Shown: piece after piece, positions 18,110-20,915 of the stretch
How positions within the stretch are numbered: the stretch's first letter is position 1
How the letters are laid out: each line of letters begins with the position of its first letter
Made by a program: the position numbers and the translations under genes
Notes under the pieces: generated by a model
Told to the model about the DNA's origin: nothing
What the model saw: only the letters and a program-made list of their open reading frames with translations
Databases searched by the model: none
Source of the DNA: Streptomyces lichenis
GTDB taxonomy: Bacteria > Actinomycetota > Actinomycetes > Streptomycetales > Streptomycetaceae
Length of the DNA stretch: 64,000 nucleotides
Reading direction: 5' to 3'
NCBI RefSeq assembly: GCF_023218175.1
Contig: NZ_JALPTH010000003.1
Location: 124,001-188,000, forward strand

Positions 18110-18648
18110 TTCTGTAAGCCTGCCAGCACCCGGCGCAGCAAGTCGCCATCACAGGGCGCCCAGGGCTGCTGCCAGGGCACCCGGCCCGGGGTTCGCATCG
18201 GTGTCGCCGCCGTGTGTAGTTCGGCCCAGACGACCTTGCCGCCCGGTCCGGCATCCGACCCCCAGCGCGCGGCCAGGGCGCCGACGAGCGCCAACCCGCG
18301 CCCGCCCTCGTCCCCCTCCGCCGCGTCGGTGAGGACGGGCCGCTCCCGCGACACGTCCCACACCTCGACGGTCAGACGACCGTCGGCGCCGAGCAGCCGT
18401 ACGGTGACGACATTGGGCCCGGCCTCCGCGCCAGCCGGCACACCCGTCGCGTTCACGGCGTTGGTGACCAACTCGGATACGACGAGCAGGGCGTCGTCCT
18501 GCACGCCTTCCGCACACCACTTGGCCAGCGCCAGCCTGGTGAACGCCCGAGCGCAGGAGACCGCCGACTTGGCGGCGACGAGGGTCAACTGGTCGCAGGC
18601 GGCCGCCCGTTCCCTGCGCGGTAGCGGCGCCAGCACCGGCGCGTTCAT
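18106..18648 (-). CDS. RsbW/AbaA-type ATP-binding regulatory protein
   Basis: A 180-residue protein with a GHKL (histidine-kinase-like) ATPase domain. The N-box is VVSELVTNAVNA, the G1 box is EVWDVS, and EGGRGLALVGALAARWG forms the G2 lid. There is no kinase dimerisation domain. Such proteins act as anti-sigma-like regulators; in Streptomyces they accompany XRE-DUF5753 and DUF397 genes in WhiJ-type loci. ATG at 18648 overlaps the stop of the upstream resolvase-like gene (ATGA), placing it in the middle of a three-gene coupled operon. Confidence 0.9.
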   Translation of the reverse strand: MNAPVLAPLPRRERAAACDQLTLVAAKSAVSCARAFTRLALAKWCAEGVQDDALLVVSELVTNAVNATGVPAGAEAGPNVVTVRLLGADGRLTVEVWDVSRERPVLTDAAEGDEGGRGLALVGALAARWGSDAGPGGKVVWAELHTAATPMRTPGRVPWQQPWAPCDGDLLRRVLAGLQK

Positions 18649-18959
18649 GACTCGTCCAGCGCGACGACGGTGGCGCCGGTCTGAAGCTCGATCTGAAGCA
18701 GCAGGGCGTTCTGCAGCCGCTCCGTCAGCGCGAGGTCGCGGTAGGAGGGGACGACCACATGGTGCGACTCGGCCCGCCGCAGGGCCGCGACCAGCTCATC
18801 GAACGCCGAGCGCTGGTTGGGGAGAAGCTCGTGGAAGACGGTGCCCAGGGTGAGCCCTTCGGCCTGGGCGTACGCCTCCATGTCGTGTTCCTTGCGCTTG
18901 GCCTCGTCGTCGGACATGTCCGGCGGGACGCGCATGTAGCCGAAGATCAGCGGGTTCAA
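18645..18959 (-). CDS. Stand-alone, catalytically degenerate serine-resolvase-like domain
   Basis: A 104-residue protein resembling only the catalytic domain of serine recombinases (FGYMRVPPDMSDDEAKRK ... QRSAFDELVAALRR ... HHVVVPSYRDLALTERLQ). The Tyr-x-Arg-Val-Ser signature reads YMRVP, so the nucleophilic serine is replaced by proline, and the usual Asp-Arg-Leu-Gly-Arg active-site motif is YRDLALTE. It has no DNA-binding tail. It is therefore unlikely to recombine DNA and may act as a regulator or oligomerisation module. The start is a TTG at 18959, chosen because GGGGAG sits eight bases upstream; a GTG at 18992 in the same frame has no ribosome site. It is the first gene of the coupled operon. 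Confidence 0.75.
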   Translation of the reverse strand: MNPLIFGYMRVPPDMSDDEAKRKEHDMEAYAQAEGLTLGTVFHELLPNQRSAFDELVAALRRAESHHVVVPSYRDLALTERLQNALLLQIELQTGATVVALDES

Positions 18960-19047
18960 CGCTGGAGCTCCCCTCGCCTTGCCGACGATCACCTGGAGTG
19001 ATGTCGGCGACCCTTTGGGTAACCGAGTGAAGCACCGTCAGACTCGT

Positions 19048-19112
19048 AAATGCAAGACTACATTTCTTAGTAATCACATGTGAATGATCGAACTTTTATC
19101 CGCCATTGCGGA
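19048..19112. promoter_or_regulatory. AT-rich divergent control region with palindromes
   Basis: The 218 bp between the divergent resolvase-like and XRE genes are strikingly AT-rich for this genome. They hold an inverted repeat AAATG-N8-CATTT (19048-19065), a perfect palindrome TCACATGTGA (19074-19083) and TCCGC-N4-GCGGA (19099-19112). Binding by the adjacent XRE regulator is the simplest reading. Confidence 0.5.
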
Positions 19113-19177
19113 TCCGAATAGCCGACGACTACGTTGCGGGTGAAAGAGACACCCGCCCGACAGGAAGGTGGCCGCCC

Positions 19178-20062
19178 ATGAGCGGTGCGACGACTGGTTC
19201 CACGGTTCCTCGGCGGCAACTCGGCCGTCATCTGCGTGACTTGCGCAACGCGGCGCGCTTCACCGTCCGGGCCGCAGCCAAGCATCTGGAGTGGTCGGAG
19301 CCGAAAATCTGGCGCATCGAAACGGGCCAGGTGTCACTGCGAAGCCTCGACGTCGAGGCCATGTGCAGGGTGTACGGCGCGGACGAGAAGCTGACCCAAG
19401 CGCTGATGGGACTGGCCAAGGAGACCAAGGGGCGTGGCTGGTGGCACGCCTATGGTGACGCCATCCCGGATGACTTCGACCTCTACATCGGGCTGGAGGA
19501 GGCCACCGACCGCATCTCCTGGTACGAAGCGGAGTTGGTGCCTGGTCTCTTCCAGACGCCAGACTACGCCCGTGTGCTGATCAAGCGGTCAAACCCCGAC
19601 TTGGTCGATGCGGAGATCGAACGACGCGTCCATGTGCGTGTGACGCGGCAGGCACTGCTCACGCGGGTGACGGCACCACCCCGCGTAGAGGTCGCCCTCA
19701 ATGAGGCGATCCTTCGTCGTCCCGTGGGCGGCCGTAAAGTCATGGCCGAGCAGCTGGACCACCTGGTTCACTTGAATACGCTGGACACTGTGTCCATCCG
19801 TGTCGTGCCGTACGCCGCTGGGTTCCACGACGGCATCATGTCCGGACCGTTCGTCATCCTGCGCTTCCCGGACCACGGTGACACCCGCTACACCGAACCT
19901 CCCACGGTCTACGTGGAGGGCTTCACAGGCGCCCTCTACCTCGACAAACCTAACGAAATCGAGCGTTATGAGAACGCGTTCGATTCCATCTGGAGCTCGG
20001 CGCTGGACGAAGCAGCGAGTACGAGCCTCCTCAAGCACGCAGCGAAGGATCTGAGCGAATGA
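19178..20062 (+). CDS. XRE-family regulator with DUF5753 (WhiJ/Scr1-like)
   Basis: A 294-residue protein with an N-terminal helix-turn-helix (RHLRDLRNAARFTVRAAAKHLEWSEPKIWRIETGQVSL, about residues 15-55) and a C-terminal DUF5753 effector domain that begins near ISWYEAELVPGLFQTPDYARVLI. This pairing defines the WhiJ-like regulators of Streptomyces, which work with a partner DUF397 protein. Consistently, its stop codon overlaps the start of a DUF397 gene. ATG at 19178 follows GGAAGG. Codon use is visibly less GC-biased than in neighbouring housekeeping genes. Confidence 0.93.
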   Translation: MSGATTGSTVPRRQLGRHLRDLRNAARFTVRAAAKHLEWSEPKIWRIETGQVSLRSLDVEAMCRVYGADEKLTQALMGLAKETKGRGWWHAYGDAIPDDFDLYIGLEEATDRISWYEAELVPGLFQTPDYARVLIKRSNPDLVDAEIERRVHVRVTRQALLTRVTAPPRVEVALNEAILRRPVGGRKVMAEQLDHLVHLNTLDTVSIRVVPYAAGFHDGIMSGPFVILRFPDHGDTRYTEPPTVYVEGFTGALYLDKPNEIERYENAFDSIWSSALDEAASTSLLKHAAKDLSE

Positions 20063-20268
20063 AGAGTGCCGACCTGACAGGTGCAATCTGGTTCAAGAGC
20101 AGCCGCAGCAACGGCGATCGCAACTGCGTCGAGGTCGCCATCCTCGACGATGGACGGGTAGCGACCCGCGACAGCAAGGAGCGCGGCCAGGGTGCTGCCC
20201 TGGTCTTCGCCACACACCAGTGGCAGGCGTTCCAGGACAATCTGCTGGCCGGAGAACTCAACCACTAG
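20059..20268 (+). CDS. DUF397 protein, copy 1
   Basis: A 69-residue DUF397 protein (WFKSSRSNGDRNCVEVAILDDGRVATRDSK...FATHQWQAF). ATG at 20059 overlaps the stop of the XRE gene (ATGA), so the two are translationally coupled. DUF397 proteins are small partners or antagonists of WhiJ-type XRE regulators. This copy differs clearly from the other two (residues around DNLLAGELNH are unique), suggesting it is the cognate, older partner. Confidence 0.92.
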   Translation: MKSADLTGAIWFKSSRSNGDRNCVEVAILDDGRVATRDSKERGQGAALVFATHQWQAFQDNLLAGELNH

Positions 20269-20282
20269 AGGGGAGCCAGATG

Positions 20283-20495
20283 ATGGACAGTGCCGCACTG
20301 ACCGGCGCCCCCTGGCGCAAGAGCAGCCATAGCAACGGACAAGCCCAGTGCGTCGAGGTCGCCGTCCTCCCCAACGGCAGCGTGGCCACCCGCGACTCCA
20401 AGGCCCACGGCCACGGCCCCGCCCTGATCTTCACCACACACCAGTGGCAGACGTTCCAGACTGGCGTACAACACGGGGTCCTGGGCCAGGTATAA
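20283..20495 (+). CDS. DUF397 protein, copy 2
   Basis: A 70-residue DUF397 protein (PWRKSSHSNGQAQCVEVAVLPNG...DSKAHGHGPALIFTTHQWQTF). Two consecutive ATGs occur at 20280 and 20283; the second is preferred because GGGGAG is seven bases upstream and because it aligns exactly with the start of copy 3, 420 bp downstream. It follows copy 1 by 14 bp and is probably in the same transcript, which would end at the hairpin at 20511. Confidence 0.9.
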   Translation: MDSAALTGAPWRKSSHSNGQAQCVEVAVLPNGSVATRDSKAHGHGPALIFTTHQWQTFQTGVQHGVLGQV

Positions 20496-20510
20496 CCATC
20501 CGACCCCGTT

Positions 20511-20543
20511 GGGCGCCCGACCAGCACAACAGGTCGGGCGCCC
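20511..20543. terminator. Perfect 12-bp hairpin after DUF397 copy 2
   Basis: GGGCGCCCGACC (20511-20522) and GGTCGGGCGCCC (20532-20543) with a 9-nt loop, 16 bp after the stop codon. A shorter relative follows copy 3, suggesting that the terminator was duplicated with the gene. Confidence 0.85.
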
Positions 20544-20565
20544 CACTCGTGTTACATCCGAAGCT

Positions 20566-20581
20566 CCTGCCTTAAGGCAGG
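20566..20581. promoter_or_regulatory. Perfect 16-bp palindrome between DUF397 copies
   Basis: CCTGCCTTAAGGCAGG is fully symmetric with an AT core, in the 207-bp gap between DUF397 copies 2 and 3. It may be an operator for copy 3 or a duplication junction. No promoter boxes are obvious beside it. Confidence 0.45.
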
Positions 20582-20702
20582 GTCGCACCCAATTGCAGCC
20601 CGCTCGCGAGGGGGCTCGTCCTCACCCTCGACGTCCAGCATTGGCGGCCCTTGCCCCTGGGCATGCTGTGGAGGGACTTCGACATATCGGGGAGCTGGAA
20701 CA

Positions 20703-20915
20703 GTGGACAGAGCCGACCTGACAGGCGCCCCTTGGCGCAAGAGCAGCTACAGCAACGGCCAGGCCGAGTGTGTCGAGGTCGCACCCCTCGCTGACCGCCA
20801 CGTCGCCACCCGCGACACCAAGGCCCACGGCCACGGCCCCGCCCTGATCTTCACCACACACCAGTGGCAGACCTTCCAGGCCGGTGTGCGCGACTGCGCG
20901 CTCGACCAGCCGTAA
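20703..20915 (+). CDS. DUF397 protein, copy 3 (recent duplicate)
   Basis: A 70-residue DUF397 protein starting at GTG 20703, with GGGGAG eight bases upstream. It is colinear with copy 2 at an exact 420-bp offset. A 55-bp stretch (20818-20872) is identical in DNA to 20398-20452, and the C-terminal THQWQTFQ regions match. Differences cluster in the middle (PLADRHVATRDT against PLPNGSVATRDS by eye). The high DNA identity points to a recent tandem duplication followed by divergence of the recognition region. Confidence 0.9.
   Translation: MDRADLTGAPWRKSSYSNGQAECVEVAPLADRHVATRDTKAHGHGPALIFTTHQWQTFQAGVRDCALDQP

Follow-up and report, generated by a model that had tools for sequence, protein, structure and literature searches.

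The anti-sigma kinases SpoIIAB/RsbW have the STAS proteins SpoIIAA/RsbV as their antagonists. For the ATPases encoded in the abaA-whiJ-bldB loci of Streptomyces, we know of no established mode of action. These loci influence Streptomyces development and antibiotic production, and the accessible part of PMC10294661 describes them as carrying a HATPase gene that diverges from an XRE gene, the latter accompanied by DUF397 partners. According to the same part of that paper, activation of iosA in S. venezuelae requires WhiJ9, which binds to repeats located between whiJ9 and iosA, and loss of BldB leads to up-regulation of abaA paralogues and iosA. The XRE-DUF397 combination has also been put forward as a possible toxin-antitoxin pair (PMC2701414, available sections).

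In this work we analyzed a 64,000-nt stretch of Streptomyces lichenis DNA (positions 124,001 to 188,000 of contig NZ_JALPTH010000003.1), referred to below as the window, in which a HATPase gene adjoins XRE-DUF5753 and DUF397 genes, the arrangement that defines abaA-whiJ-bldB loci. Judged by its gene content, this locus in the window is of the abaA-whiJ-bldB type and has an additional component: compared with the loci in the accessible part of PMC10294661, it adds a recombinase-like gene before the ATPase gene and a PIMT-like methyltransferase gene after it. We named the product of the recombinase-like gene PR, for 'pseudo-resolvase'. PR resembles IosA of S. venezuelae in being a small protein on the output side of a whiJ-bldB locus; by the descriptions of fold and pI, not by sequence, the two differ, IosA having a predicted structure distinct from any solved and a pI of 10.3 (PMC10294661, accessible part) and PR a known fold and a pI of 4.79. 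The likeness to SpoIIAB/RsbW and SpoIIAA/RsbV lies in the HATPase_c_2 domain and the adjoining gene for a small alpha/beta protein. The partner here has the recombinase fold, not STAS, and the window ATPase is at most a candidate for kinase activity or sigma-factor binding. The word 'resolvase' does not occur in PMC10294661; in PMC10364602, which deals with fourteen XRE-DUF397 pairs, the terms ATPase, anti-sigma and resolvase are all absent, and the available part of PMC7159879 treats DUF397 and not resolvases. Our literature search, with most subscription papers and all preprints outside its scope, found no description of a recombinase-like partner of AbaA/RsbW-like ATPases. The novelty is thus the combination, which we did not find described, of a known fold and a known locus type.

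Results

The PR gene is located on the minus strand, begins with TTG and encodes 104 aa (Table 1). A preliminary description of the window gave its coordinates correctly, without a strand, and credited it with a strong ribosome site, which is true of the Shine-Dalgarno sequence GGGGAG and not of the TTG start codon. The position of the start codon is identical in the aligned window-type relatives. The operon with an RsbW-like ATPase and a methyltransferase that was described earlier was also found: the PR stop codon and the start of the ATPase gene overlap in an ATGA, and the ATPase and methyltransferase genes overlap by 4 bases. From these overlaps we infer that the three genes are translationally coupled. 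The intergenic region between PR and the XRE gene presumably has a control role. Downstream of the XRE-DUF5753 gene there are three consecutive DUF397 genes (20059-20915).

Table 1. Features of the PR locus, in positions of the window.
Feature	Position	Strand	Evidence
PIMT-like methyltransferase, 374 aa	16985..18109	-	PF01135 E 1.9e-21
AbaA/RsbW-like HATPase_c_2 protein, 180 aa	18106..18648	-	PF13581 E 9.1e-10
PR, stand-alone serine-recombinase-like domain, very probably catalytically dead	18645..18959	-	PF00239, AF2 model, structural matches
Intergenic region between PR and XRE genes	18960..19177	.	alignment of 14 window-type loci
Ribosome-binding site GGGGAG, 8 nt before TTG	18968..18973	-	sequence
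TGCTTCACTCG block (11 bases) upstream of PR	19024..19034	-	exact in 9/14 aligned window-type loci
ATGTAGTCTTGCAT block upstream of PR	19050..19063	-	exact in 4/14 aligned window-type loci
Divergent XRE-DUF5753 regulator (WhiJ-like)	19178..20062	+	PF19054 E 2.9e-56, PF13560 E 5.6e-18
DUF397 (BldB-like) protein 1	20059..20268	+	PF04149 E 8.4e-18
DUF397 protein 2	20280..20495	+	PF04149 E 2e-19
DUF397 protein 3	20703..20915	+	PF04149 E 1.2e-19

PR had been described as a stand-alone resolvase domain, and both sequence and structure comparison bear this out. PF00239 (Resolvase) matches residues 5-102 of PR with an E-value of 6.2e-6 and 26.8 bits, above the cut-off of 23.3, and the similarity is therefore beyond chance; the same family also matches 10 of 14 aligned PR homologues at E up to 0.1, and a profile-profile comparison of PR with 25 canonical recombinases gave a probability of 97.3 (E 2.3e-11). 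An AlphaFold (AF2) model based on 8 sequences (pLDDT 82, pTM 0.75) predicts strands (E) and helices (H) in the order E-H-E-H-E-H-E. The structures that it matches best are serine recombinase catalytic domains, with VIA-align Z scores of 11.3 for 6dgc (IS607-family TnpA), 10.9 for 3guv, 10.7 for 3bvp (TP901-1 integrase) and 9.3 for Tn3 resolvase 5cy1; fold and element order of the PF00239 domains 6dgc, 3bvp and 5cy1 are like those predicted for PR. The fold alone is indecisive, because the HflX N-terminal domain reaches a Z of 9.5, equal to some recombinases or resolvases, and Foldseek returned a single match with E <0.001, a recombinase. KaiC chains stand among the recombinases by Foldseek E-value, with lower TM-scores (about 0.43 versus 0.57-0.67). 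The HflX and KaiC folds as the identity of PR are overruled by the Pfam and profile matches to recombinases; it is the sequence that decides, and by that measure PR is homologous to serine recombinases. Y8 and R10 of PR match the Y-x-R of resolvases. Unlike serine recombinases, PR is without the catalytic serine, DRxxR, the E-helix and the DNA-binding domain, the model of the 104-aa protein stopping at strand 97-101, and it occurs stand-alone or fused to an ATPase.

We then examined the catalytic residues across the family. In the window PR, YMRVP is found in place of Y-x-R-V-S and YRDLAL at the position of DRLGR, which confirms the serine-to-proline replacement and the loss of DRLGR reported in the preliminary description. 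Searching the fetched loci with a PR profile yielded 94 rows, of which 90 remain when redundant ones are removed. Serine occupies the catalytic column in only one of these 90, which is a tandem copy from L096 with 34% identity to the window PR. The column otherwise contains L (19), P (15), A (14), V (9), Y (7), T (6), a gap (4), H (3), F (3), D (2), E (2), I (2) and N, Q or R (1 each). Proline at this site is thus not a property of the PR homologues at large (15/90); it is typical solely of the window's subfamily (13 of 15 rows with at least 45% identity). In the 40 loci fetched later, two have the serine (L231 and L232) and one row is truncated before the site. Homologues with an intact serine and recombination activity had been named as the finding that would point to simple decay; the homologues with a serine are those of L096, L231 and L232, and there are none in the window's subfamily. 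As a control we took recombinases from 30 loci, the best PF00239 matches in related genomes, a choice that favours intact recombinase genes; serine is present in 27 of the 28 that were parsed, and the single exception appears to be misparsed. The D-R pair of DRxxR is found in 0/90 PR rows, with R at the third column in 23/90, and DRxxR is present in 20 of the 28 parsed controls.

PR has conserved columns of its own: Y8 (80/90), R10 (83/90), E44 (87/90), P71 (81/90), S72 (73/90, or 78/90 when Ser and Thr are counted together) and H at position 75 (72/90). In the window's subfamily, position 75 is D in 8, E in 6 and A in 1. Placed by the secondary structure of the model, R10, E44, S72 and residue 75 are predicted at the C-terminal ends of strands 1-3 or shortly past them. 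NG86 dN/dS was calculated for 52 PR pairs of 70-99.5% identity, the duplicate loci L093 and L095 being left out, and ranges from 0.067 to 0.501 (median 0.24) in 51 of them; one pair has a dS of 0 and an undefined ratio. In a tree that joins 39 PRs with 25 recombinases, for which 5 of the 30 control loci were omitted, one branch with 100/99 support splits the two groups; the PRs were gathered with PR profiles, so the tree shows separation, not the number of origins. Since serine loss is family-wide, dN/dS is low and PR conserves residues of its own near the old active site, these comparisons indicate that PR is kept by purifying selection and is not a decaying copy. Consistent with the non-catalytic job proposed earlier, PR is very probably non-catalytic.

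PR is found in a minority of the genomes searched. A wide profile (E 1e-7), whose weaker matches were verified solely in the 40 later fetched loci, detected PR in at least 39 of 199 same-genus genomes and at least 31 of 394 class genomes; a narrow profile (E 1e-6) detected it in at least 38 of 394 family genomes and at least 3 of 396 phylum genomes, and the window protein as query in 17 of 295 same-genus genomes. The profile counts may be lower bounds because no more than 12 or 25 candidates were scored in each genome. The S. lichenis genome carries a second PR copy on another contig, 67% identical to the window PR, and the two PRs are its only PF00239 matches (the assembly is in 67 contigs and may have a gap). 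The search of 50,697 phage records gave zero matches and that of viral contigs none that was confirmed, which gives no indication that PR is a phage gene. Two partial matches (69% of the query) are located on Nocardia plasmids. PHROGs has no match for PR, and PADLOC has none for PR, the ATPase or the XRE protein; the methyltransferase gave a partial mad2 match in PADLOC at 46.8 bits.

Next, we examined the gene neighbourhoods. The 82 stretches used (window, L066-L132 and L163-L176) were reduced to 78 by removal of two duplicates and of L167 and L176, which have no PR row. An AbaA/RsbW-like ATPase is encoded within 400 nt of PR, or fused to it, in 67 of the 78. With a limit of 500 nt the same is true of 28 of the 40 loci fetched later, which include some near-duplicates and contributed no PRs to the search profile; the other 12 have no ATPase in that range. 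The window-type loci have the ATPase in 15/15 and the divergent XRE-DUF5753 gene in 14/15, and such a gene is found within 900 nt in 34 of the 78 loci. No ATPase is in range in 11 of the 78 (L084, L099, L102, L104, L129, L130, L131, L169, L172, L173 and L174), although in four of these (L169, L172, L173 and L174) an ATPase match lies elsewhere in the stretch or beyond the limit. L130, L131 and L217, from another family of the class, have a PR subfamily with the motif YGYLRDD/YVRDD and no ATPase in range; this subfamily seems to be without any ATPase. Two or more PR rows are present in 12 of the 78 loci (L078, L082, L083, L087, L089, L090, L092, L096, L098, L100, L101 and L106), mostly in tandem ahead of one ATPase, and the domain may work as a heterodimer in such cases.

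PR and the ATPase are encoded in one frame in six loci (L107, L123, L171, L220, L231 and L232), with PR first except in L107, where the order is ATPase then PR. The fusions in L220, L231 and L232 are from other families of the class. L171 is one open frame and the genes are separate in its close relative L168; L171 may be two genes without an intervening stop. Fusion in both orders is the strongest sign that PR and the ATPase function jointly. An ATPase tree was made from 60 PR-linked ATPases and 30 of the 43 from the S. lichenis genome, with few columns and many unresolved forks. The largest PR-linked clade has 47 rows (support 87/91) and includes just two S. lichenis ATPases, both PR-linked, and the PR-linkage label changes 6 times on the tree versus 25.5 in shuffles; physical linkage alone can explain such shared clades. 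Within the genome, the nearest relative of the window ATPase is the other PR-linked ATPase (162 bits; the next is at 66). This class of ATPase is not generally PR-dependent, because few genomes carry PR and S. lichenis has 43 HATPase_c_2-type ATPase matches against 2 PRs. The window ATPase has the RsbW/SpoIIAB-type N-box and glycine-rich ATP-binding motifs (PF13581; SELVTNA, GRGL), and SELVTNA, D98 and GRGL are invariant in 6 aligned PR-linked ATPases (of 8, from the window and L066-L072). A phmmer search of the ATPase against PDB sequences had no match at E up to 1.

Neighbour clustering, with Pfam on 20 chosen neighbours, suggests five gene contexts. In context A, XRE-DUF5753/DUF397 genes are divergent from PR-ATPase. 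Context B has a 5-FTHF-cyclo-ligase and a 388-aa HTH_3 protein next to PR-(PR-)ATPase, and context C has, next to PR-ATPase, a protein of about 500-600 aa that clusters with the context B regulator (its HTH match is sub-cut-off in L088, and L117 has none). In context D (L077, L080, L081, L103 and L165) all genes run in one direction with PR and ATPase last, and the others encode DUF6879, XRE (4/5), a sub-cut-off radical-SAM match, an exonuclease, an aldo-keto reductase (3/5) and a thymidylate-kinase-like protein; this operon is perhaps a biosynthetic or nucleotide-modifying cluster. Context E has WbqC-like, DUF218 and HTH_3 protein genes next to PR and ATPase, the latter pair followed in some loci by DUF5949, AdoHcyase-like and NUDIX genes. 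The common core of all contexts is PR plus ATPase, and XRE-type genes adjoin the pair in several of them. A more distant PR subfamily (MEPLTEHR...FLRLV...SHLGP) was seen in L128, L129, L168-L175 and several of L235-L251. Its neighbours are DUF218 and WbqC-like genes and, in many loci, an XRE-like gene; five loci of this subfamily have ATPases that group in a clade of their own.

The methyltransferase was rejected as a core partner, being directly behind the ATPase in the window alone among the fetched loci; in L125 a PIMT-like gene is two genes further on from the ATPase. It matches TIGR04188 (graspetide methyltransferase) with 281 bits, below the cut-off of 380, and the one GRASP ligase match in the genome is on a different contig. 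The available part of PMC13097080 reports that DUF397/DUF5753 genes occur close to some graspetide clusters and that a PIMT is almost always present in one group of these clusters. This pattern is consistent with the window PIMT being variable cargo.

Discussion

PR combines recombinase homology with loss of the catalytic serine and the D-R pair, purifying selection, linkage and fusion to an ATPase and a nearby XRE-type gene. The tie to the ATPase is family-wide and includes fusions, which argues for a partner role. We concluded that PR is probably a non-catalytic protein, derived from serine recombinases, and a partner dedicated to the AbaA/RsbW-like ATPase whose gene immediately follows. By analogy with WhiJ9 and iosA in S. 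venezuelae (PMC10294661, accessible part), the XRE-DUF5753 protein and its DUF397 partners would act at the intergenic region between the two divergent transcription units and thereby switch the PR-ATPase(-methyltransferase) operon. PR would be made just ahead of the ATPase from the overlapping genes, would bind the ATPase and would set its activity or its choice of target, with the former active-site face (R10, E44, S72 and residue 75) as a contact surface or ligand pocket. It is a doubtful extension of this scheme that PR is a new STAS-like antagonist, phosphorylated by the ATPase acting as a kinase, perhaps on Ser/Thr72 at the end of strand 3, with the ATPase switching between PR and its target.

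A possible reading, if not a probable one, is that the old active-site face has become a new ligand-binding or catalytic site, through which PR would either signal to the ATPase or serve the operon as a small enzyme. The conserved polar residues R10, E44, S72 and 75, predicted near the C-terminal ends of strands 1-3, are in its favour, as are the neighbouring genes in L077 (exonuclease, aldo-keto reductase and thymidylate-kinase-like genes and the sub-cut-off radical-SAM match) and in L168 (AdoHcyase-like and NUDIX genes). However, residue 75 is D, E or A instead of H in the window's subfamily, no ligand is known, and the residues were placed by secondary structure, not by coordinates. Oligomerisation and sensing, two of the roles suggested in the preliminary description, may yet apply to PR. 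DNA tethering was suggested there as well, but that PR is a DNA-tethering or DNA-sensing subunit and brings the ATPase or the XRE protein to DNA is unlikely: PR descends from a DNA-acting enzyme family and has an XRE-type regulator gene nearby in several contexts, but the fold stops short of the E-helix, a DNA-binding domain is missing, the D-R pair is absent from all rows and the protein is acidic (the domain has a median pI of 5.3, with values above 7.5 in 11/90). A dominant-negative decoy, assembling with active serine recombinases to inhibit them, would make use of the recombinase fold predicted for PR. The E-helix, which builds recombinase dimers, is beyond the end of the PR model, the PF00239 matches found in the genome, whose 67-contig assembly may have a gap, are the two PRs themselves, and the tie to the ATPase would be left unexplained, which makes a decoy very unlikely. 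A decaying resolvase pseudogene fragment that lies before the ATPase gene by chance would be shorter than a full recombinase and without catalytic residues, as PR is, and it is nevertheless hardly credible given a serine loss common to 85 of the 86 homologues readable at the catalytic column, the low dN/dS, the retained operon of overlapping genes, the second copy in the genome and the well-supported split from 25 recombinases.

The labels 'resolvase' and 'recombinase family protein' on such short genes may mislead, and PR clearly qualifies as a candidate case of recruitment of a DNA-cutting enzyme domain into apparent regulation. A dedicated and sometimes fused partner would provide a concrete handle on how abaA-type ATPases act. 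If the doubtful reading of PR as a phosphorylated STAS-like antagonist is true, PR and its ATPase would represent a new class of partner-switch module across Streptomyces and related actinomycetes, placed under several XRE-type regulators.
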